From the NCBI GenBank assembly GCA_951394045.1, contig OX595985.1:1674001-1738000 (forward strand): a stretch of 64,000 nucleotides of DNA. The letters are read 5' to 3'. The notes below the pieces were generated by a model, which saw nothing but the letters and a program-made list of their open reading frames with translations, was not told the DNA's origin and did not search any database. Each line of letters opens with the position of its first letter. Within the stretch, counting starts at the first letter, position 1. The stretch comes from Nitzschia sp. DOCU1 (lineage: Eukaryota > Bacillariophyta > Bacillariophyceae > Bacillariales > Bacillariaceae). The position numbers and the translations under genes are program-made. Shown piece by piece: positions 19,285 through 50,294 of this stretch.

Positions 19285-21693
19285 ATGAGTGGATCATCGA
19301 CTGGTTCATCAAGAGCGGTGGCAGCTGCGTTAGTGAGCGCAGGTGTGGTTGTCACTACTTTGGCCGCTAGTAGTTGGTGGTTCGCGCGAGAACAGTCCTC
19401 CGACAGCAAGGACCATGAAGAATCCAAGGATGATGCTTCTCCCACTCCCAGAATATCCAATGCTCGAAGAACAAGAACGCGAAAACCCACAGAACTTGTT
19501 GCTGATGCCTCTGAAGAAATTCCTGCTTCCATGATTCGAGAAATCGACACGTCACAGGGTAACCAGCAGGATACCACTGAATCCAGGCGTGGACGCATCT
19601 TGGCACCAAACACAATTACGATTGCCCATGGATCTGTCACTGGAACTTGCGCCAAACTGGCACAGCAGTTGTTCGAAGCGCTGACCGATAAGGGTTTGCT
19701 GGAGCAGAAGTACACCACTATTCAATTGGGGAAACTAGAAGAGTGGGATTGGTGGGACGAATTACTCAACAACGACGATGGGGACAACGAGGAAAAGAAA
19801 ATGGACAAGGGTGTCATTTCAGAAGAAACGGCTCCACCAGTTTTGTTGGTATTATTGCCTACACACCATGGGGGATCCTGGCCTCCTTCGGCGACCTGTC
19901 TAGAGACGGCACTGCAAGATTTGGCCAATGACTGGAGAATCTCCAAGCACCCCCTCAAGTCCAGTCGATTAACAGTTGGAGTTCTCGGTATGGGATGCTC
20001 GGATTACGGCGACGATAGTGTTGGAAGGCCGGCTCGAGAGGCCTTTTCCAGCTTTCGACAACTGGGGGCGATCATGATGGGACGTCAGGTACGAATTGGT
20101 GACGATGCATCGGGAAATCAAGATCGGGTGCTGCAAGCGTGGATCCACCACGATATTTTACCTCGTCTTGTGGTTGACGATGATGACGACCACGAGGGCC
20201 ATGGCCACAACGAAAAAGAACCAGAAGTGGTTGACATGGAAGATTTGGGTACATCCATGGAAAGGGCGGAAAACGACGATGACGGCATGGTCAAGACCTC
20301 AGAACCCCGAGAAATGGTGACATCGTCCCAGGCTGCGGCCCTGAAGAAGGAGGGCTATAAATTGATTGGAACACACAGTGCTGTCAAATTGTGTCGGTGG
20401 ACGAAGCATCAGTTGCGGGGTCGAGGCGGCTGCTACAAGCACACCTTTTATGGCATTACGTCGTACCAATGCATGGAAGCAACACCAAGTCTCGCGTGTG
20501 CCAACAAGTGCGTCTTTTGCTGGCGCCACCACAAGAACCCTGTCGGCAAGGAGTGGAAATGGAAGACTGATGACCCGCATTTTATCGTTGATCAAGCCGT
20601 CAAGACTCACGTGCAAATGATCAAGGAGACCAAGGGAATTCCTGGGGTAAACAACGAGAGATGGAAAGAAGCTCACACAGTACGCCATTGCGCGCTATCG
20701 CTAGTCGGGGAGCCAATCATGTACCCGCGTATCAACGAATTACTAGCGGACTTGCATCAGCGGCAGATCTCTACCTTCTTGGTGACGAATGGTCAACACC
20801 CCAAGGCTATTGGATCACTCATACCTGTCACTCAACTCTACGTGTCTGTCGACGCTCCCACGCCCGAAAGCTTGGTGGCCATCGATCGACCGCTCTTCTC
20901 AGATGCTTGGGAACGGCTGCAGCAATCCCTAGAGCTACTGAAAGACAGGGGACAGCGAACCGTAGCCCGGCTGACCGTGGTGAAGGGATGGAACTCAGAC
21001 GAGATCGAGGGCTATGCCAAATTGATTGCATTGGGCAGGGTATCCCTAATCGAGGTCAAAGGCGTTACATTTTGCGGCAAATCCGATGCTTCCAATCTCA
21101 ATATGTCGAACACGCCGTGGCATCATGAAGTCGTCGAACTCGTCCAGACGCTCAAGGTCGAATTGGACAGGTTGCGACAAGCAGGCGGTCCAAACGCGCC
21201 TCCCGAGTACGATCTAGCCTGCGAACACAAGCATTCTGTTAGTGTCCTCTTGGCGCGCGTCGATCAATTCGCGTATCAAGCAGAGGATGGATCCAGACGA
21301 TGGAAGACGTGGATCGACTACCCCAAGTTTCACGAACTAGTTGCCAAGCACGAAGCAGACCCTACGTTCACTTTTAGCGTCCAAGACTATGTTGCTGAGA
21401 CGCCGGCCTGGGCACTTTTTGGCTCGGAAGAAGAAGGCTTCGACCCGACCGATACGCGACATCGAAAGAAACAGAAGTATCCAAAGTACACCAGGTTTGA
21501 CGAGAAAGGCGTTCCCACACATGATCATGAAAATCAAGAACTGAGCCCCGAGGAACGTGCTCGCCTTCAGACGCTCATGGCGCAAAAGATGAAAGAGGTT
21601 GGCTCTGGATCCACCGTCACGGAGCTCAAAGGCGGCGAAAAGGTGATTCAAGATGCAAGTCTTATGTTTCGTGGGCAGGTCATTGTAAAATAA
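19285..21693 (+). CDS. TYW1: tRNA wybutosine synthase TYW1 (flavodoxin + radical SAM), with N-terminal hydrophobic segment
   Basis: A single exon of 802 residues. TYW1 makes the tricyclic 4-demethylwyosine from m1G37 of tRNA-Phe using pyruvate and S-adenosylmethionine. Residues about 105-290 are the flavodoxin-like FMN domain (ITIAHGSVTGTCAKLAQ, LLPTHHGGSWPPS, VGVLGMGCSDYG). The radical SAM domain (about 340-700) carries CANKCVFCWRHHKNP with the cluster cysteines near 405, 409 and 412, plus SLVGEPIMYPRI, TNGQHP, VSVDAPT and RLTVVKGWN, all TYW1 hallmarks. The first 35 residues contain a strong hydrophobic segment (AVAAALVSAGVVVTTLAAS), suggesting ER or other membrane anchoring. Acidic linkers separate the domains. 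The length is close to that of animal and yeast TYW1. Confidence 0.95.
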   Translation: MSGSSTGSSRAVAAALVSAGVVVTTLAASSWWFAREQSSDSKDHEESKDDASPTPRISNARRTRTRKPTELVADASEEIPASMIREIDTSQGNQQDTTESRRGRILAPNTITIAHGSVTGTCAKLAQQLFEALTDKGLLEQKYTTIQLGKLEEWDWWDELLNNDDGDNEEKKMDKGVISEETAPPVLLVLLPTHHGGSWPPSATCLETALQDLANDWRISKHPLKSSRLTVGVLGMGCSDYGDDSVGRPAREAFSSFRQLGAIMMGRQVRIGDDASGNQDRVLQAWIHHDILPRLVVDDDDDHEGHGHNEKEPEVVDMEDLGTSMERAENDDDGMVKTSEPREMVTSSQAAALKKEGYKLIGTHSAVKLCRWTKHQLRGRGGCYKHTFYGITSYQCMEATPSLACANKCVFCWRHHKNPVGKEWKWKTDDPHFIVDQAVKTHVQMIKETKGIPGVNNERWKEAHTVRHCALSLVGEPIMYPRINELLADLHQRQISTFLVTNGQHPKAIGSLIPVTQLYVSVDAPTPESLVAIDRPLFSDAWERLQQSLELLKDRGQRTVARLTVVKGWNSDEIEGYAKLIALGRVSLIEVKGVTFCGKSDASNLNMSNTPWHHEVVELVQTLKVELDRLRQAGGPNAPPEYDLACEHKHSVSVLLARVDQFAYQAEDGSRRWKTWIDYPKFHELVAKHEADPTFTFSVQDYVAETPAWALFGSEEEGFDPTDTRHRKKQKYPKYTRFDEKGVPTHDHENQELSPEERARLQTLMAQKMKEVGSGSTVTELKGGEKVIQDASLMFRGQVIVK

Positions 21694-23659: not shown

Positions 23660-26361
23660 TCAGACGGCTTCCTTGATGATAATATGGAAAGAGAAAGGAG
23701 AGAAGCGGATTCCATCAGCCTTGAAGAACTTGTTCTGGAACTCGACCCAGTGCAAACGAAGGGCGTGGAGGAAACATTCGAGCACATCCATGGCCAGCAA
23801 GACACCAAACGTAACTCCCGCGAAGACTCCAAAACCGAAGAAAGTGGCAACGCTTCCCAAAGGCAAAGTCGTCAGCATTGCCTTTTCCCAAAACACAGTG
23901 GCGAGCTCGGAGTGGGCAAGCGACAGAGCCCAGAGACGAAGGTACGAGGCAGTGTTGGAAACCATACCAAGGACGAATTCGATGGTCTCAATGGCTTGAT
24001 GAATAACGATCTCTCCGAACCCATGCTCTTCTTCTCCTTCTTCGTGACCGTGGTGCGCCCCTTCTTCATCCTGGTGCTCAATGCGATGGTGGCTTTGTTT
24101 GCTAAGGAAATAAGGCTTGGCCAACAAAAGGACAGGAACAGAGGCAAAGGCACACAAGAGAAGCACGTTTTGGAGCTGCGCTTGTCCGGCAAACATGGGC
24201 TCGATGACATCTCCTGGTTGAAGGGCAATGTTGATCAAGGTAGTGATAAGGTTGGGGGGTTGGCAACCATCGCCATCTCCGCCAAAGTCCAAGGGGCACT
24301 TGATGGCGGTGGTGTCCCCATCATTGCACGAGTAACCCCAGGGGGTACAGTAGCCGTTACCGCTTTGGTCACAGACCACCCAGTCACCCTTGTAGTCCGA
24401 GCTACCCCACCCATCGCCATTGGGGTCCAAACAGGTGGCGGAAAGCATGCGGGAATTCCAGTCGATACTCCACTTCATAAAGATGAGGACGACCATGTAG
24501 ATGAATAACGACACAGCGAAGATAACCATCGGAATGAACTCAAACAAAAAGTCCAGCCGTTCACCGAAGTAGATGGCATTGAGCCCCTTCAACATGGTTC
24601 CCATGAACATTTGGAAGATACCAAAGATCACCGAAAGCTTCATCTTGAAAGAGTTGAAGAACAAGAGCTCGTTGGAAGTGACATGCCAGATAGGATCGAG
24701 ACCGAAGGGGTAGACACTGTCGTTGGCTCCGTAATCGGAAATGGGTTCAGCGGCAGATCCTTCCTCAACTTCTCCATAGGCCTGTCCTTCAAAGGCCCAG
24801 CGAGAACCAAAGAAGTTGATACCCAAGGAGAAGCAGTCGTTGTAGATCATACCGGCGTAAATGGCGAAGAAACCCATCATCAAAAGCATGTAACGTCCCA
24901 TGTGGACACCTTCCGTCAACTCGTCCATCTTGGATCCTTCATTCTTCTTCTCGTTCCAGACCAAAAGAGCTCCGACAGTGAAAAGGAAGAGGCCGTGTCC
25001 AATATCACCATACATGACACCAAACAAGAAAGGGAAGGTGGCGGCAGTGAATAGAGCAGGGTTGGCTTCTCGATAACGGGGAATACCGTACGTGTTAACG
25101 AACTCTTGGAATCCGTACGTGAACTTGTTCGTCACAAAGTGAGTGGGGGGAGTAGGCCAGGGCTGGGGAACATGGTCCACCAAACTGGGCATAGCCATGT
25201 CCATGTTTGCGTGCGCCTTTTCGACAGCAGCCTTGACTTCTTGCAAGTGCTCACTGACGACCCATCCTTCTCCACGAAGCATGCCGGACACATCAGCCTT
25301 GAACATGTTCAAAGAGTGGTATACGGCTTTCTCCTTGAGGACCATCCAAGTCCAACGCTCAACGTGCTTGGCGAGCATCTGGCATAGACGGTAACGAGTA
25401 TCTTGATTCTTTAACAAGATAGTACGAGAGTCAACAAGCTCTTGGGCATTCTCAGTCAACATCCTCTCGACCGAGGCCGAGTCATCCATATCAGGAAGCG
25501 AATATCGGTGTGCCAAGAAGGCATCACACAGCTTCTTAAGCTTTGCCTCGATGCTGTCGGATTTGTAAAAGATGATAAAGACCGACTTATCGATAAGCTC
25601 TCCGGTATTAGGATCCGTGATTGGCTGCTTAATGGGGACAAATCGCAAGAAGCAGTTTCCCTTGGTAGCACGCCAAACCATGCGCTCAAATCGCTGACGC
25701 TCTTCGGTGGCAACGACGCCTGTAATAGACGAGAAGCGCATGTCCAAGTCAGGGCGCAAGAGCTCTTCTTGATTGGAAGGACCAGAGGGTTCACTGGAGA
25801 GTTCGGAAACAGCAAGACGAGGTCCGTCAGTCATGAAAAAGCGACGTGCCTTCTCCAAGACTTCTTGAAGCTCGACCTTTTCATTGTACTCGACCGTCAG
25901 CTTTTCGCTGTACGTGTTAAGTTCCTTGAGTTGCGTCTGGTAATCTTCCAACTCGCTCTCAAGACTTTCCAAGACTTGAGTTCCGCTGGCCTTGCTGTTA
26001 TCCTTCGAAAGGACGGGGGTTTCCAAAAAGGTGTCCACGTCGCCAGCCGAGAGGGTTTCAATGCCGAACCTGGTAATCTCTTGCGAGAAAAAGCGGAGTT
26101 TGCGCTCCAATTCATCGCATCGCTTGACGTAAGTCACGTAACGACGTTGGAAGGGAGTCAAGTCGGGGTTCAACTACAAACAAAATAAAGAGTTGAGTGC
26201 ATGGCAAACTAGTGAAACTATCCGCCAGGCAGAGTGAAACTCACATCGGTGAACTGAATGGCGCCCAACCTCCCCAGATCAGAGAGACAGTCGTGGGCGG
26301 CGTCTTCATTCATGATGATGGAGATGTACTCCATCGGCTCGGAACGGAACCATTTCGCCAT
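23660..26361 (-). CDS. VHA-a: V-type H+-ATPase subunit a (V0 116-kDa)
   Basis: Exons 26361-26245 (39 codons) and 26173-23660 give 876 residues. The join reads QFTDLNPDLTPFQRRYV, the conserved start of subunit a. The N-terminal half is cytosolic and coiled (two antiparallel helical arms). The C-terminal half has about eight membrane segments, including the proton half-channel helix ASYLRLWALSLAHSEL with the essential Arg (about residue 785) and LHWVEFQNKFFKADG near the end. The subunit forms the stator and the proton path against the c-ring and acidifies vacuoles and endosomes, or the silica deposition vesicle in diatoms. A Cys/Gly-rich lumenal loop between membrane segments (about 580-650) is longer than I expect for animal homologues. 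Confidence 0.95.
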
Positions 26362-27117: not shown

Positions 27118-30100
27118 ATGTCGTCAAGCGACCGAAAACAGGGGGCTACAGTCCCTCGTTCAGGTTCCGGTACTAATCTGTCCGACCTGGAGCACTCCGA
27201 TGTTGAAAACAGTGCTGGCCCGGCCAGAATTATTCGAAAGATCCGAGGCGATGGGACGCGAAGAAATCACTTGTCCTTTTTAGTGTCAGAACGAAAAGCA
27301 AGACAACGCTATCTCATTAAGTTGTTGCGTCGAGACAGTCTTCGTGGGAGTGCGCACGGAAGTGATCATGGGGCAGCAGTAGCAGCCGGAGAGGCTGTTG
27401 TGCCTAGGAAGGGCGTCTCGGGTGGTTTTTTGGAGAAAGACTTGACCTCTTCTTTGCCTCGTCCTGACGTTGCCACACGAAGTGCAAGCGGGATGTCCAC
27501 GGCAACAGTAGAGTACGAATTGACAGAAACACAAAAGGAGCAAATGCAGAAAATGTCCGAGTCCATGAAGATTATTCAACGCAAACTAGAAGAATACAAG
27601 CACTTGTGGTTTCACTTTCCAATGGAAGTACGAATTGACGATCTGACGTACTCGGTTCCGGTGACCGCTGCTTCAAACAAGATCAAGACCGTTTATAACT
27701 CGAGTATTGTTTACAAGATTGTTAAAGTTGTCAAGAATCTTGGGAAGGACCAATCGGCGGAGGCGGGGACGCAACCGTCGTCAAAGGCCATATTGGAGCA
27801 CATTTCGTTGTGCCTCAAGCCTGGCCGAATGTATCTGTTGTTAGGGCCACCAGGATCGGGCAAGACAACTTTGCTAAAGGCGATTGCCGGCCGGCTTAAG
27901 ACCAAACATGGAGAGACCATGTCAGGTAAAGTCAGCTACAATGGAAAGTCCTTCCAGGACCGGACTCACTTTCACATTGAGAATGCAATTGCTTTTATTG
28001 ATCAATTGGATCGGCATGCTCCGCGACTCACGGTCGACGAAACCTTTGAGTTTGCCTTTCAATGCAAAAATGGAGGCTCGCATGTGGATATGGCTGAGTG
28101 GAGTAATAGCAAGGAGGAACGGCTCGTCGCGCAGGATGTGGCCAAACGAGCAGACAGCGAACGCCTGCTGGTTAATCTTGTTCTCTCATCCCTGGGTCTG
28201 ACGAGCGTCAGAGATACGTTTGTTGGTGATGATGAGATCCGAGGAGTCAGCGGTGGACAACGGAGGCGGGTGACAGTTGGAGAAATGCTGTTCGGAACAA
28301 CGCCCGTGGTTGTAGGAGATGAAATTTCCAATGGATTGGATGCTTCCTCGACCTTTGAAATGGTTCAAATTTTAACCCTTGGATCCAAGGACAATCAACG
28401 AACACGTGTTATCTCGCTTTTACAACCAAGTCCGGAGACGGTGGCGCTCTTTGACGAAATTATTTTGCTGGGTGACGGAATGATTCTGTATGCTGGACCT
28501 ATCGCAGACGTCGAAGACTACTTTGCGAAGCTCGGTTATCGTGCCCCACCTTACATGGACGTCGCCGACTTTCTTCAGCTGCTATCTTCACCCTCCAATT
28601 GTGAAATGTTGTTTCACCCGCCACCTGAAGTAGCCGAATCTCAGCCCAAGCCTTACACGACGAGCCAATTGGCCGAGTTGTTTCGAAATAGTGCAAACGG
28701 ACTGATTATTCAAGCCAGTCTAAAAGCTCCCTTTCAGCAAGTATGGGGTAGTTCCACCGAGGGTGTGCAGGTCGCCGATGGAGTTGACCACTTGGACGAC
28801 AGGCGCTTTCATCGAAAGTTTGGGAATTCCTTTCACAGGTCGGTCATGCTCAATCTCAAGCGCAACTTGACACTTTGGATTCGCGATCGTCGTGTTCTTA
28901 TCGCCAACGCCGCCAAGAATATCATCATGGGTCTCAGTGTCGGTGGAGTCTTCTTTCAAACAGATGACGTTATTTCTGTTCTTGGTGTCCTCTTTCAAGG
29001 GATGCTTTTCATCATGTTGGGTGCCATGGTGACAGCACCAGGCTTCGTGGACGAGCGGGTTATTTACTACAAGCAAGCCGATGCCAATTTCTTTTCATCC
29101 TATCCATTTGTCCTTGGAAAGGCAATCTCGAAACTGCCCCAGGTACGAAGCTTGGTTGATATGAACCGATTAGTTTTGCTAGTCTGCTCACCCAGTTCAT
29201 TAGACGACGATGGATTGCTTTGCGTTTGGCACTCTCCTCTATTTCATGGTGGGATTGGCAAATACGGCGCAAAACTACTTCATTTTCATGGCTATTATCA
29301 TCGCCTTCAGTGTCCTTATGAACGAGCTCCTCTTTGTCTTTGCCACTTTTGCGCGAGCGAAAGATATGGTGCAGGTGGCAAGTGCTTGTTTGATGTTTTT
29401 CTTTATTTTGTTTTCGGGTTTCATCATTCCTCCCAATGTGATTCCCAGCTACTACACTTGGATTTACTGGTACAATCCTATGGCGTGGGCGTATCGAGCT
29501 CTGTTAATTAACGAATATCGGAGCTCAAAGTACACTCAGGAAGAAGGAGACGAAATCTTGACCTATACTGGCTTTTTAGACGGGAGTGGAGAGCCCTTTA
29601 CGAAGAAATGGGTTGGCTATAGTTTCATCTATCTATTGGGCCATACAATCATTACCATGCTGGCCTCTGCCGTCTTTCTCAAAAGAGTCCGGGTGGCCAA
29701 CACGTCAGGAGTTGGCGATGATCAAATCGAACAGGTGCAGTCGGCAGAACCTGTTCCTGAAACAAACATATCATTCAAGCCAGTCACTTTGACATTTGAA
29801 AACATCTGCTACGATGTCAAGACATCTAAAGGAAACGAAAGCCTGCGACTGTTAGACAACGTCAATGGGGCCTTCCGATCCGGCAGAATGACTGCTTTGA
29901 TGGGCACTTCTGGTGCCGGAAAGACGACTTTGATGGATGTCGTTGCGATGCGCAAAACGTCTGGGACTATCCAGGGAGACATTCGTCTTAACGGATACCC
30001 TCAGGATCCCGTTGCTTTCCGCCGCTGTTCGGGATTTGTGGAGCAATTCGATGTGCAGACACCACAGCTGACTGTGCGAGAGACGGTGCTATTTTCCGCC

Positions 30101-35486: not shown

Positions 35487-37751
35487 ATGGATACTCTCAT
35501 TCCCATTGCTTCCAAGCTCCAAGATGTTCTTGGAGCTGTCGGTCAAAATACGCAGTTGGACTTGCCTCAGATTGTCGTGGTTGGAGGTCAATCCTCAGGC
35601 AAATCCTCCGTGCTTGAGGGTCTAGTAGGCCGATCTTTCTTGCCCCGAGGTACTGGTATCGTGACACGCCGTCCTTTGATCTTGCAGCTCTTCAATACTC
35701 GTGCCCTCTCAGACGCCGGGGACGACTCTGAAGACTACTATGAAAATCTCGACCCTAACGCCAGCACTTTGGACTCGAACGAGGAGTGGGGAGAGTTCTT
35801 GCACATCCCTGGCAAGAAGTTTCATAAGTTCCAGCAAATCCGGGACGAGATCGTCCGCGAGACGGATCGTTCTACGGGAGGCAACAAAGGAATCTCGAAC
35901 GATCCGATTCGACTCAAAATCTTCAGTCCTCGCGTCTTGTCCTTGACGCTGGTCGACCTCCCTGGAATGACCAAAGTTCCCGTGGGAGATCAGCCTGAGA
36001 ACATCGAGGAGCAAATCCATGATATGATCTTGCAGTACATTTCCAATCCTAACGCTATTATTTTGGCTGTCACTGCTGCCAACACGGATATTGCTAACAG
36101 CGATGCGCTGCAGCTTGCCAAGGCGGCTGATCCGTATGGAAACCGCACGATTGGTGTCTTGACCAAGCTAGATCTCATGGATCCTGGAACGGATGCTTCC
36201 GAAGTCTTGAATAATCAGTTGATCCCTCTCCGCAAGGGTTACATTGGCGTAGTCAACCGGGGGCAGAAGGATATTAATGAAGACCTTTCCATCCGCGATG
36301 GACTGCGCAAGGAGGAAGCTTTCTTTGCGCACCATCCTATTTACTCGCGTGATCGTGAGCTCTTGTCCAGGTGTGGTACCGGCACTCTCGCCAAGACCCT
36401 GAACGTCATCCTTATGCACCACATTCGAGAGTGCCTTCCTGACGTCAAGAATAGAATTTCCTCTATGATGAACGACGTCCAATCCGAATTGGAGGCCCTT
36501 GGCAATCCAGACGAGGGCATGTCCAAGAACGCTCTTGGTGGAACTCTTCTTGGACTCCTGTCCAAGTTTGCTACCAACTTTGCCTCTATCATCGACGGTA
36601 AGGGTGGTGAGCTCAACAATACCGCTAACGCACGCAATCTCGCCTTGATTGAATTGTTTGGTGGTGCGCGTATCAACTACATCTTTACCGAAATCTTTGC
36701 TACTTCTCTCATGGGTGTCGGTCCCTTTGACGGTTTGACTGACGACGAGATCCGTACCACCATCATGAACGCCAATGGTACTCGCCGTGCCTTGTTTGTC
36801 CCTGAAATCTCGTTTGATATCTTGGTGCGACGGCAAATTGCTCGATTGGAGCAGCCGGGTATTCAATGCGTCGACTTGGTCTACGAGGAACTACAGCGTA
36901 TTGCCCATCAGTCAGAACCCAAGGAGCTTGCTCGTTTCCCTTTCTTGAAGGAACGCATGGTTGAGGTCGTCAGTCTTCTATTGAAGCGATGTATGAGTCC
37001 GACCCAAATCATGGTTTCCAACTTGGTTAAGATCGAATTGGCGGTGAGTATTTGGATTGCATGCTTTGTCTTCTGGCATCGCAACAGCATCTAACATTTT
37101 GACGTTTTGCAGTACCTCAACACTAGCCACCCGGACTTTATTGGAGGATCGCGGGCCGTCGCTAATCTTATGCAACGAAAGGCCGACAACGACAGAATCG
37201 GAAATGGCGGCGGCGCCGGTGCTCCACCTGAAACCCCGAACTCTTCCTACTACGCCCCCGAGGACGAAGAAGGAAATGCTACTCCCTATGGTGATGCCAA
37301 TGGTGGAATCATGAACTTTATCTTCCGAGGTGGAAAGACTCCTCCTGCGGAAAAGCTTCATGCCCCTGGTGGTCCCCCTACGGTTGTGCATCTTCCCCAA
37401 GTGCCTCCTACGATGAAACAAACGGACTTCCCGGCGAGCGAAAGAGAAATCACTGAAATGCATGTAATCAAGTCGCTCATTGAATCCTACTTCCGAGTTG
37501 TCCGCAAGACCTTCATTGACATGGTTCCCAAGACGATCATGTACTTCTTGGTAAACCACGTCAAGGACGCCCTGCAGAATGAGCTCGTTTCGGAACTCTA
37601 TCGCGAGGCCGAGATCATGGGATTGATGAAGGAAGCGGAAGATGTCGCCCAAAAACGAAGTACCTGTACGGAAATGCGAGACTTGTTGGGCAAGGCTCTG
37701 GAAATTGTAAACGAAGTACGGGATTACAACACATTCAGTCACACCGAGTAA
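35487..37751 (+). CDS. Dynamin-related GTPase (DRP1/Dnm1/Vps1-like)
   Basis: Exons 35487-37043 and 37113-37751 give 731 residues. The GTPase domain (about 1-310) has GGQSSGKSSVLEGLVGR (P-loop), PRGTGIVTRRPL (switch I), LVDLPGMTKVPVGDQP (G3) and TKLDLMDPG (G4). The middle/stalk region follows, then a Gly/Pro-rich insert B (about 540-610) in place of a PH domain, then the GED (about 630-725: VIKSLIESYFRVVRKTFIDMVPKTI). This is the architecture of fission dynamins that divide mitochondria and peroxisomes, or of Vps1. In algae a plastid role is also possible. There is no Pro-rich domain and no membrane helix. Confidence 0.95.
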
Positions 37752-44668: not shown

Positions 44669-45682
44669 ATGTTTACGAGATTACACTGTCGATCTCAAGT
44701 ACAAAAGAGCATGATTCTTCTATCAGCCATTCTAGTAGTGACATTATCGTCCATGACGTCTTCGGTCCATGCGTGGTCCTTTTCCAGCAACGTTTTGGAT
44801 CGACGATCCTATCTGGAACTGCTACAGCTGATACCTCTATCGACATTATTGACGACATCTTCCAATGTTGTAGTTGCTGAAGTGTCTGCTTCTACTACTA
44901 CTACCACAGCCGTGCCTACCATGCCCAATGTGCCCATTACTGACAAGGTCTTTTTTGACGTTCGCATCGCCCGTCAAGATGGATCGACCTATGTTCGAGA
45001 CGACCTACCCGATACCTTTGAGAATCGCGTTTTGAAAGCTCGATTAGTCATTGGATTGTATGGTACCGTGGCACCCAATCACGTCCAACGTTTTCTAAGT
45101 TATGTGGTCCCACCCAAAGACGACGACGTGGAAAATCCCTTTCCCTCGTATGGTCGATCTACTTTTACTGCATTGGATCAGCAAACGGGGCTCTTTCAGG
45201 GAGGCTACATTCCATCACTACGTGTCACAGACATGAGTGGATCGACAGCGATTACCTATGGATCTCGTGTATTGCCCGCGTCATTATGGATCGAAAAGTC
45301 ATCGCCGCCGCCAGAAAAACTATCCCATTCCACCAAAGGCCTGCTCACTCACAGAAACTTGGATGTCACACCCTCCTTTGGAATTACAACAAGAGCTGCA
45401 CCCGAATTATTGGATGCAACACATACTGTCTTTGGACAAATACTGTGGGATGAGGCCACTTTGGGCTGGTTCAATCAATTGCAAGATATTCCGACGTATT
45501 CGGTGGATCGACCCTCGGGTAGTGATGAATTCAGTACTGGGGGAGTAGCCACTTCGGTCTTTAATGCGCAACGAGACTTTTTTCGCGGTGCCGCCAAGTC
45601 GGTAGGCGATACTCGTGTGAGCAAGTTATACGAAGGAAAACTATTGCGGCGAACCGAAGTCATGCAAGTAGGCAAGTTATAG
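44669..45682 (+). CDS. Plastid (thylakoid lumen) cyclophilin-type peptidyl-prolyl isomerase-like protein
   Basis: A single exon of 337 residues. The leader MILLSAILVVTLSSMTSSVHA|WSF has Trp directly after the signal cleavage site, a diatom plastid motif. A second hydrophobic stretch (LLQLIPLSTLLTTSSNVVVA) suggests export to the thylakoid lumen. The cyclophilin-like domain begins at KVFFDVRIARQDG and RLVIGLYGTVAPNHVQRFLSY, followed by FQGGYIPSLRV in the place of the FMIQGGD strand and HTVFGQIL near the end (V-FGxV in cyclophilins). Canonical catalytic residues (the FxxQGGD Arg/Phe/Gln set) are only partly kept, so isomerase activity is doubtful. It resembles the plant lumenal CYP26/CYP28 group. 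Confidence 0.75.
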   Translation: MFTRLHCRSQVQKSMILLSAILVVTLSSMTSSVHAWSFSSNVLDRRSYLELLQLIPLSTLLTTSSNVVVAEVSASTTTTTAVPTMPNVPITDKVFFDVRIARQDGSTYVRDDLPDTFENRVLKARLVIGLYGTVAPNHVQRFLSYVVPPKDDDVENPFPSYGRSTFTALDQQTGLFQGGYIPSLRVTDMSGSTAITYGSRVLPASLWIEKSSPPPEKLSHSTKGLLTHRNLDVTPSFGITTRAAPELLDATHTVFGQILWDEATLGWFNQLQDIPTYSVDRPSGSDEFSTGGVATSVFNAQRDFFRGAAKSVGDTRVSKLYEGKLLRRTEVMQVGKL

Positions 45683-45907: not shown

Positions 45908-48341
45908 CTAGTTCGTCTCGCACCGTTCAGCCGCTCTGGGCTTGAGCATTTTAGCGTTTGGCGTAGCAAATAGGATCCTATCGGCGCGGGGCCGAATCTG
46001 GATGGGTCGTCTAGGTTCAGGAAAGGGGACTCGGGTAAATAGACGTTCCTCATGACGTATCTCAACGTGCTTTTCCATCTTGGGAGTCGGCGAGGACGAT
46101 ACCTCCGACTCCTGCTGCAGCGATCTGGTAGGAGTTGTCGGCGTTGATAGCGAGATTCCGTTGCCTTTCTCCATTTCGACCAAATCATCTGCGGATCGGC
46201 TCCGTTGAAACGACGATTCCAACGAGATTTCATTCGAGGACGGAGTCCGAATGTGACGAATCGACTTGGTAAGCTTTCGCGTCATTCGTCGCATAAAGGT
46301 TTGACGTTTTCCAGGTATGATCGGCGTGTGGTTCTGAAGCAGGACAATCAAGAAGATTTTGGTCTGCAACACCATAATCGGAATCTCCAAACCTTGGAGC
46401 GGTAACGTTCCATACAAATCCACTGATGGATAGTGAATTCCCATCTCCTCTGGCCTCTTGGGCGGGTCATAGTTGATACTGAATGTCTCTTCGTCGTGAG
46501 GATTCGACAAGAATACCGTCGAGTTTTTGGGGACTTGGACGCCGTCAAGTTCAATCGTTTGATTGACAGTTTTCAATCCTCCCATGAAAGGTGGGCAGAA
46601 GCGCATCGCCTCATAAATCAGGTTGTCGAGTTTATTCATTTTTCCAAGGACAAATGACGTAAAGAGACGATCCTTGTACTTCTGCTCCAAGCGATCGATT
46701 TCCGCTTGGACTTGATTGCAGGCATCTTCGTGTTTGGAAAGCAAGTACATAGCCATGGAAGTCCAAGCTTGGCCAGCATCCATCATCATCCAAATCAGTA
46801 GGGTTATTTCCGTGGTTGCTACCCGCGTGATACCTCGACCTTCATAATCGGCGGAACGCAATATTCGATCCAGCACCGACTGAGGCGTTTTCCGCATAGG
46901 GTTTTTCACCAACAATCGTGAGCTTTGCACGTCCAAAACGTCCGGTTCTGATGATGCGCGGAACCTTGGTCTTGTTGCCACCTTTGTAAAGCCAGAGTCC
47001 GTCACTGCCATCTCCGGCACAATGTCATTCTCAGACTGTGTCCGTGTACGGTTGGCGTCAGCACTCAAGGATCTTCGAAAGCCCATAATCGGGTGCTCGC
47101 TCGGAAAGAAATAATTCTCGGTCAGTCTCCACAATGGGAGAGCGGAAGTAAAGGGGTCGCGCGTTGCCCGACCTTTCTCATGGTGAACAGGGATATTCTT
47201 TTCACATTCTTCGATGTGAGAACTCAACAAAGTTTCCAGCTTCTTTCGCGCGTTGAGCGCTCGACCGTACGGATTGAGCCGCCATAGTTGCATCCATTGC
47301 GGGCCATACGTGAATTTGATATCGCAAAGACCATCCTTGAGTCTATCCATCCACAGCAGCAACCTTTCCTTGCTGGGACGCTCCTTTTCGGGTGGTTCGT
47401 TGCTGACGGTGTCTTCCTCAAAACGCACCGACTTTTCATTGTCGGCTTCCACAAGACTTCTGGACGACATTTCCTTCAACTGCGACGCCGAGGACAAAGT
47501 ATCCCGGTAGTCGTGGTCGAGATTTAATACAGGCCCCTGGGTCAAGTCCAGAGTGTATGATCGCAAAGCATCCAATTTGATCATGTGGGCCTTTTCTTCA
47601 GCATCACTGAGAGTCGAATCGCTCGTGTTCATCAAGTCTTCGTCTCCAGAATTTCCTGCAGTCCCATCGCTATCTTTGGACTCTCCAGGTCGAATACTAT
47701 GTCGATCTCCTTTATTGAAATTTCCTGCCAAGATCTCATCAATGCACTTTTGCGCCAACTCGGCAAATTGTGGGGCGAGCTTGACTACCGATGCATGACT
47801 TAGAGGCTCGCTAATCATGGACCGTAAGCACGTTGCCTCTTCCTCCTCCAGTATGGCCAGACACGTCTTCCCCAACAAGGTGATTGGCGGCGTATTGTAG
47901 GGCCAGCCCTCCGTGACATCTCCTTCCAAAATGACCTTTTCCACCCGTTCGCGGCCCTTGGCCACAATATTCCATTGACCCCATACAAAGATGCAGAAGA
48001 CATCAGCGAGCCGCCTACTCCAACTTGAAGGGAAACACCGCCATTCTCGCCACTCTGGCGGAAACAAAAAGGCTACATCCGAGCCGAATTTATGAAAGAG
48101 TATTGTATGCCCTAATACGGGCCATGCGCCATTCCCTGTGAGAGCCCTCGGCGGTACTGGCAGAGATGAATTGGAGTCACGTTTCGGTCCCGATATTAAT
48201 TGAAGAATCGTCAAGTAGCCATAATAAATCAACACAAGGGCGACGACGACGATGACAAATGGCTACAATACCAAGAGGGGGTTGAGTGAGTGTGAGAAGA
48301 AGGCAAGCTACATCATGGGAATACCTTCTCGTACGTACCAT
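45908..48341 (-). CDS. Cytochrome P450-like protein lacking the haem-ligand Cys
   Basis: The start codon is alone in its exon (48341-48339), spliced to 48262-45908, giving 785 residues. It has an N-terminal anchor (PFVIVVVALVLIYYGYL) and the P450 Pro-rich/Gly hinge (GNGAWPVLGHTILF). An acidic insert, about residues 180-310, is not part of P450. The I helix (DAGQAWTSMAMYLLSKHED, about 497-515) lacks the acid-Thr pair of AGxxT in usual spacing. The K helix has EAMR (about 553) and LDGVQVPKNSTVFLSNPHD follows. At the haem loop the sequence is LYGTLPLQGLEIPIM with Leu (about 624) where the axial Cys belongs, and there is no Cys downstream. The C-terminal 140 residues are basic/Ser-rich. It is probably a pseudo-enzyme with an ER-anchored P450 fold. 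Confidence 0.75.
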
Positions 48342-49020: not shown

Positions 49021-50294
49021 ATGGCTCTCCAACAGCAGACAGCTCCCATCGGAGCTTCCATGGTGCACCTCTTCGGTGTCGCACCCGGTCAACAAGCGCA
49101 TGAACACTCGCCGGCTACCGTGGCAACAACGACAACAAGCAGCATTCCGCATCGACAACTTTCCTCCTTCTCCAAACCAGCCATTCCCTGCATTCTACTG
49201 CCTGGTGACGATGAACAAATCCATAGCAAGCGAATTTTATTGCAAGGACCGCCCAAGTCAGGACGGACCAGCATGGCCATGAATTTGGCGTACGCTTGCG
49301 CTGCCGAGTCGGCGGCACCCTGTCATTGCTCCGTGCAATCGTGTCGATGCACCAGTGTGATTCTGTACCGAAAAGCAAAAGCAGCGCCTTCCACTGATAG
49401 AATGCGATCCAACTCGGCTAAAGAAGACTTTCCGTTACCATGTCGATTTGTCGGCAAGGCTACAGAGGGTACTAGTGATACAGCTGCTGGCAACACGACA
49501 ACTACGAACCATTCAATACATGTCCATCATCATCATGCTTTGAAAAAATCAGCCACTACAACTGTACAGGAGGAAAAAAATACTCCAGACGACTGGGATC
49601 CACAAATTCTGGGACGCATTCGAATTCAATATGTGGCGTCGGCAAAGGAAATGCTTCAAGATTTGTTGGGCGTACTTGCCAAGCCCTTGCACGACCATCC
49701 GTCTCGTGCCATTATCATTGATGATTTGGATGAGATTGTGGCTCGTCCGACAACAGCATCATCATCATCATCGACGACTACTTCTTCCAGTATGGCTCCA
49801 ACAGTGGGTGGAATGCAGCACAATTCAAAATCTGTGCATACGGAAACGACTATTTCTATAATGCAAACATGTAAGAGGAATGACGAATCGTCGATGGAAC
49901 TTGCCTGCTTCTGAAAACAGTGAATATCTCTCAACCATCTAAATTTTCTTCAGTGGCATTGGCGGTGGATACTAGTCACGCATTGGAGCGCCTTCATGGC
50001 GTTTTGCCTTTTTTGGTTGCGACCATGTCATCCTCCACGATTTCAGCCCCGTGGATGGATACGGTGGTCTCTCTGACAATGTGCTCTTCTACTCATTCAA
50101 GTGATGTTGCTCTAGTAGATGCTCGGAACCAAGGCTCTCGTAGCCAAGCAGGCGGGACGCTTGGTCGGTGGAGGGCTGACTTTCGGGGCAAGGGATCTGG
50201 GACGGGTTCGTTATCTTGGTCGTCGATAGTGGACTATTCCTTTGTACAACATTCTGACGACGGGAACATTATTGAATGGGATCAACGCAGCTAG
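49021..50294 (+). CDS. SWSAP1-like RecA-fold ATPase-related protein
   Basis: Exons 49021-49870 and 49954-50294 give 396 residues. After a Thr/His-rich leader comes a P-loop-like KRILLQGPPKSGRTSMAMNL (about residues 70-89), where the invariant Walker A Lys is Arg. A Cys/His cluster (CHCSVQSCRC) lies just after, then LGRIRIQYVASAKEMLQDLL, then a Walker B strand AIIIDDLDEIV. The order GPPxSGKTS...RIQMKYV...VVIDDF matches plant and animal SWSAP1-like proteins, RAD51 paralogue-like partners of the SWIM-domain protein SWS1 in homologous recombination. A low-complexity His/Ser/Thr insert separates the motifs. The C-terminal exon ends WSSIVDYSFVQHSDDGNIIEW. Assignment is by motif order only. Confidence 0.55.

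Follow-up and report, generated by a model that had tools for sequence, protein, structure and literature searches.

Homologues of cytochrome P450 that lack the conserved cysteine have already been published. EryCII is described as a P450 homologue without the cysteine that stabilises the glycosyltransferase EryCIII and is proposed to activate it allosterically (PMC3391682), and AknT is described in much the same way (PMC10054333). EryCII, DesVIII and AknT, all bacterial glycosyltransferase activators, are presented as not being active P450 enzymes and as best conserved in their C-terminal half, in which they may be likened to the protein treated here (PMC3391682, PMC10054333). In oomycetes, six CYP5619D proteins without the CxG cysteine are recorded (PMC5919972). 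Here we describe a P450-derived protein of the diatom Nitzschia sp. DOCU1 that has lost the entire haem-thiolate loop core. It is encoded at 45908-48262 on the minus strand of a 64-kb window, the whole stretch of DNA analysed (C1:1674001-1738000, in a genome of 52 Mb and 63 contigs). The genome has 18 silicon-transporter matches, and of the listed matches to its CYP51 that carry an organism's name the nearest are those of Nitzschia species; both mark it as a diatom. All coordinates are those of the window, and residues are numbered 1-784 along the main exon with the spliced methionine left uncounted.

The protein belongs to a family of which 29 homologues were collected (19 in a first search and 10 more in a second), giving 30 rows with the window protein, 19 of which reach the loop. 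With EryCII, DesVIII and AknT it has in common a P450 fold from which the conserved cysteine is absent (PMC3391682, PMC10054333). EryCII and DesVIII are bacterial proteins of antibiotic biosynthesis without C and C' helices and with an extra N-terminal A'' helix that binds a glycosyltransferase (PMC3391682). The window protein, in contrast, is anchored at its N-terminus, is interrupted by long inserts of poor conservation, shows an apparent C-helix and carries a conserved motif near its C-terminus, and the solved EryCII chain is not named among the best 60 of its 64 Protein Data Bank sequence matches at E up to 10. CYP5619D is described with a fusion to a peroxidase/dioxygenase, an E-V-K/Q-R motif and only six members without the cysteine (PMC5919972). 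In the family treated here, however, 19 of 19 loops are cysteine-less, and in the window protein Pfam at E up to 1 finds only the p450 domain and no fused one. Oomycetes and diatoms are both stramenopiles and are distantly related. No diatom P450 without the cysteine was found by title in the open-licence literature, which lacks most subscription papers.

Loss of the haem-thiolate loop

The axial cysteine is the defining feature of P450 chemistry. It lies in the FxxGxRxCxG motif, and this motif, ExxR, WxxxR, PERF/W and the acid/Thr pair of the I-helix are named and assigned their roles from general P450 knowledge. The regions of the window protein that correspond to three of these are:

46364..46414, minus strand: rebuilt haem-loop region YGTLPLQGLEIPIMVLQ, residues 617-633; the best alignments place the deletion of GxRxC between Gly624 and Leu625
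46733..46834, minus strand: I-helix, residues 477-510, with DAGQAWT at 495-501; the core model has a helix at 480-510, with block means of pLDDT from 65 to 85
47810..47845, minus strand: C-helix equivalent, residues 140-151, aligned to WxxxR by hhalign; Ala143 replaces the Trp and Arg147 is kept

The loss of the haem-thiolate loop is well supported by comparison with intact relatives. In an alignment of 51 rows (19 family rows and 32 canonical ones, the latter from 24 loci of this genome and eight diatom CYP51s) the cysteine column is a gap in all 19 family rows and Cys in all 32 canonical rows, and the five columns of GxRxC are absent from the family loop. The hhalign profile-profile alignment yields an identical five-residue gap, over GPRNC, with the window loop aligned as YGTLPLQG-----LEIPIMVLQTK against the canonical loop. 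Alignments with CYP3A5 and CYP51 also make the loop five residues shorter, with the gap sited a few residues away and a different remaining neighbour. An earlier note on this DNA had placed a Leu at the cysteine position; a Leu-for-Cys substitution was rejected for a five-residue deletion on the 51-row and profile-profile alignments. The same note saw no cysteine in the loop or further on, which holds for the loop and fails beyond it, as Cys781 stands at the C-terminus, far from the loop. It had also proposed to place the cysteine position by profile alignment or structural model; no conserved cysteine aligns in the haem pocket in the hhalign, CYP51 or 51-row alignments, and AlphaFold placed the loop without confidence.

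Residues of other P450 motifs are gone as well. The acid position of the I-helix is non-acidic, mostly Ala, and the Thr position is Trp (Trp500) in 27 of 27 rows, a count that leaves out P0026, a chance alignment of intron read-through (28 with it). The altered acid/Thr pair that had been noticed in the window protein is confirmed, in AGQAWT. The C-helix equivalent, a helix in a low-confidence part of the model, has the WxxxR Trp in none of 25 rows (Ala in 21) and the Arg in 22, and the PERF/W Arg at position 598 is found in only three of 27 rows (P0019, P0028 and P0029), the window protein not being one of them.

The genome has 31 p450 matches, which trace to 25 loci when three neighbouring ones in L021 are taken as one. 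Apart from the gene described here, the 24 loci found all keep the cysteine haem motif, as do the short extra L021 matches. From these comparisons we infer that the window protein makes no haem-thiolate centre and would be incapable of P450 oxygen chemistry.

Conservation of the rebuilt loop

The 29 homologues are a lower bound, since P0016-P0019 of the first search are absent from the list of the second, which scored only candidates sharing most words. Those of the first search have 33-70% identity, and 18 homologues carry the same cysteine-less loop. Labels of the eukprot, mmetsp, nr or uniref sets are found on none of the 29 and on eight of the 120 listed CYP51 matches (of 1299), a difference too small to mean anything.

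When 17-residue sliding windows with enough rows are ordered from the lowest entropy upwards, the loop at 617-633 stands twelfth of 548, at 0.38 bits where the median is 1.12; the lowest values of the family are those of the N-terminal hinge. Gly618, Leu620, Pro621, Gly624, Glu626, Pro628, Leu632 and Gln633 are invariant in 19 of 19 rows. Few parts of the protein are better conserved, so the rebuilt loop is selected rather than decayed and, judged from conservation, a P450-derived core without the haem-thiolate loop is held by selection. In the tree the family is one clade with support 100/100, and its stem of 2.54 changes per column with much shorter inner branches is what a burst of change and subsequent constraint would leave. 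Two results point the other way: P0019, alone of the 19 loop-bearing rows, has a Cys at 613, as do P0020-P0022, which stop before the loop; and the family's place among P450s is not resolved. The deepest loop-bearing branches are P0017 (1364 amino acids) and P0019 (925 amino acids), which have inserts of hundreds of residues before the I-helix.

P450 ancestry and retained core

46601..46612, minus strand: ExxR motif EAMR, residues 551-554, intact
48107..48163, minus strand: P450-type proline-rich hinge LPVPPRALTGNGAWPVLGH, residues 34-52, where the entropy of the family is among its lowest
48197..48262, minus strand: N-terminal hydrophobic anchor, residues 1-22; modelled as a helix at 2-23, with a Kyte-Doolittle mean that reaches 2.59 across 19 residues
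46331..46387, minus strand: L-helix equivalent, residues 626-644; helix 626-644 in the whole-protein model, 187-204 (626-643) in the core model
47372..47728, minus strand: net acidic, poorly conserved insert, residues 179-297
46892..47128, minus strand: second poorly conserved insert, before the I-helix, residues 379-457
46940..46960, minus strand: RASSEPD, an R-x-x-S-x-P pattern in the second insert, residues 435-441
45911..46318, minus strand: basic C-terminal tail enriched in Ser by composition, residues 649-784
46007..46027, minus strand: conserved PFPEPRR motif near the C-terminus, residues 746-752

By homology the window protein is P450-derived. The Pfam p450 profile (PF00067) matches residues 458-586, covering only profile positions 236-366 of 462, and this match is above chance because its score of 40.8 bits exceeds the cut-off of 22.8. 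The family profile aligned by hhalign with 20 canonical P450s of the same genome gives a probability of 99.1% (E 6.8e-19) over 421 columns, spanning the N-terminal hinge to helix L. Solved relatives among the best Protein Data Bank sequence matches include CYP3A5, CYP46A1, CYP51 and CYP120. The best 50 structure matches of the C-terminal core model are all P450s in each of two programs, with only moderate scores, and so are the best 50 of the whole-protein model. CYP3A, CYP46A1 and CYP120 P450s are among the best matches both by sequence and by structure; these are canonical haem enzymes that keep the full loop, unlike the window protein.

The hinge, the EAMR motif and the strands following it, all remarked upon in the earlier note, are present, with the E and R of ExxR in 27 of 27 rows. 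The acidic insert and Ser-rich tail reported there are likewise real. The insert at 179-297 is net acidic (26 acidic and 14 basic residues), with conservation of 0.47 and 0.42 flanking a conserved stretch at 229-250 (0.80), and there is a second insert besides, with conservation of 0.48 over 379-455. Ser makes up 16% of residues 649-740 and 8% overall.

Two short motifs recur in these regions. An R..S.P site falls within the second insert in 21 of 30 rows, in a column that is not constant; of the nine rows without it, P0023-P0026 are without the insert, and P0019-P0022 and P0027 have the insert and no site. The number of sites exceeds 95% of shuffles in only seven of 30 rows, and for the window protein it is equalled in 124 of 500 shuffles. 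The R-x-x-S-E-P sites might be read as of 14-3-3 type, but the claim is kept to the recurring site only. All 19 loop-bearing rows, and none of the 11 others, which are incomplete there, have PFP[EV]P[RK]R.

Relation to CYP51

The family and diatom CYP51 have three short motifs in common, AGQ of the I-helix, RxCPxF following ExxR, and QxK of the L-helix, but diatom CYP51 keeps FGGGxHxCxG. When the canonical P450s of this genome are scored with the family profile, its CYP51 (L005) comes first by single domain (18.4 bits) and second by full sequence, with 18.5 against 18.6 for L010 and L022. Local profile scores are 81.5 for a CYP51 alignment, 73.1 for L022, 72.3 for L006 and 65.6 for L005, the first being favoured over the single rows because it comes from a 25-row alignment. 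In the tree, the family and CYP51 lie on opposite sides of a weak branch (55/81); the family is joined to the others by a long stem, and the program warns of long branches meeting. CYP51 kinship, promising from motifs and profile scores, is thus without support from the tree. L022 (G000:C5:993998-994732), a canonical P450 in a 671-amino-acid frame with FGVGPRYCLG, is among the closest to the family by profile score and is unresolved in the tree.

Possible function

A cysteine-less conserved loop together with a recognisable P450 core supports the non-catalytic, P450-derived protein suggested in the earlier note. Whereas the loss is read directly from sequence comparison, the function, be it the scaffold, lipid binder or regulator named in that note, can only be inferred from it. 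The reading we prefer, with a rough probability of 0.55, is that of a haem-free, membrane-anchored P450 pseudoenzyme acting as a binding or allosteric partner of another enzyme. A partner role is proposed because EryCII and DesVIII set the precedent of a cysteine-less P450 homologue activating a glycosyltransferase. The N-terminal anchor would sit in a membrane, probably the endoplasmic reticulum, where microsomal P450s are anchored, and the P450-like domain and its disordered arms would face the cytosol. There the protein might bind another enzyme and stabilise it or switch it allosterically, with either the face made up of rebuilt loop and L-helix or the tail with its conserved PFPEPRR as candidate contact surface and the R-x-x-S-E-P-D insert as a putative phosphorylation-controlled switch.

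A more far-reaching version is put forward tentatively, at less than even odds: a membrane P450 of an algal lineage may have been turned into a haem-free regulator when the loop was cut once in the common ancestor, the shortened loop becoming a new, strictly conserved binding element. The family would then be an independent eukaryotic counterpart of the EryCII type, with phosphorylation control through the inserts.

The main rival, possible if somewhat doubtful, is a haem-free lipid or sterol binder in which the apo-pocket is kept, Trp500 and the new loop fill the haem site, and a hydrophobic ligand is sensed or carried at the membrane. Retention of the fold core, anchor and hinge would suit such a protein, as would the AGQ, CPxF and QxK common with the CYP51 sterol demethylases of diatoms and the several structural matches that are CYP51s; yet the kinship fails to gain support in the tree at the 55/81 branch, and the core is broken up by long poorly conserved inserts.

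It is distinctly less probable that the protein still holds haem through a non-thiolate side chain and performs peroxidase-, carrier- or sensor-like work. Haem binding may survive the loss of the cysteine alone; the loop region opens with residue 617, which is Tyr or His in 16 of 19 rows and Phe in three, and 22 of 25 rows keep Arg147. The deletion, however, takes away the entire GxRxC stretch, residues 617-633 contain no invariant His, Cys or Tyr, and the C-helix Trp and the PERF/W Arg are lost in 25/25 and 24/27 rows, respectively.

Alternative splicing or a missed exon could restore a cysteine loop in some transcripts, which we regard as very improbable. Eight homologues (P0011, P0014, P0020, P0021, P0022, P0027, P0028 and P0029) all stop at the very Leu that precedes the loop (YPSVxL and similar). 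Eight identical stops are what a conserved phase-2 intron splitting a Tyr codon would produce (TA|GT reads TAG), which suggests such an intron directly before the loop in these homologues, where the loop would be a separate unseen exon. In the window, on the other hand, the loop is continuous with the preceding coding sequence, and all 19 loop-bearing sequences are cysteine-less. A misassembled or alternatively spliced loop exon, which the earlier note had named as a possible flaw, is therefore unlikely, given this continuity and the same loop in 18 homologues. A decaying pseudogene or annotation artefact, to which single copy and a weak P450 score might point, is hardly credible against 785 open codons, at least 29 homologues (33-70% identity for those of the first search) and an altered loop that is itself among the most conserved parts.

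Taken as a partner protein or not, the family clearly exemplifies the re-use of an enzyme fold that has given up its cofactor: the haem-gripping residues were removed, the rest of the core stayed recognisable, and the shortened loop was then nearly fixed. It offers a defined test of the capacities of the P450 fold without haem, and Pfam-based counts of P450s in algae can take in proteins other than monooxygenases.

Gene structure and neighbourhood

48339..48341, minus strand: exon 1, an ATG only, probable start codon followed by a GTACGT donor
48263..48338, minus strand: probable 76-nt intron, GTACGT...TGTAG
45908..48262, minus strand: main exon, an open frame of residues 1-784 and the stop

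The long open frame seen at first is borne out, as it runs from 48262 to 45908 on the minus strand with 784 codons before the stop and encodes 785 amino acids with the spliced ATG. The start of the protein is probably in the separate tiny exon at 48339-48341, and joining it to the main exon gives the N-terminus MPFVIVVVALV. The homologues P0009 and P0012 read through the junction with Gln-Pro, as unspliced CAG|CC would give. The gene is single-copy in the genome, the sole other match being a 27% stretch of a canonical P450 at E 0.04.

The P450-like gene is met at its 3' end by a convergent gene at 44669-45682 (plus strand), in which Pfam weakly recognises a prolyl isomerase domain of cyclophilin type (29.2 bits), and upstream of the P450-like gene lies a divergent open frame at 49021-49914 (plus strand) with a weak AAA ATPase match (25.5 bits). 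Elsewhere in the window Pfam identifies ordinary genes for a wyosine-type radical SAM enzyme (19285-21693, plus strand), a V-ATPase 116-kDa subunit (23660-26173, minus strand), an ABC-2 type transporter (27118-29511, plus strand) and a dynamin-like protein (35487-37094, plus strand).
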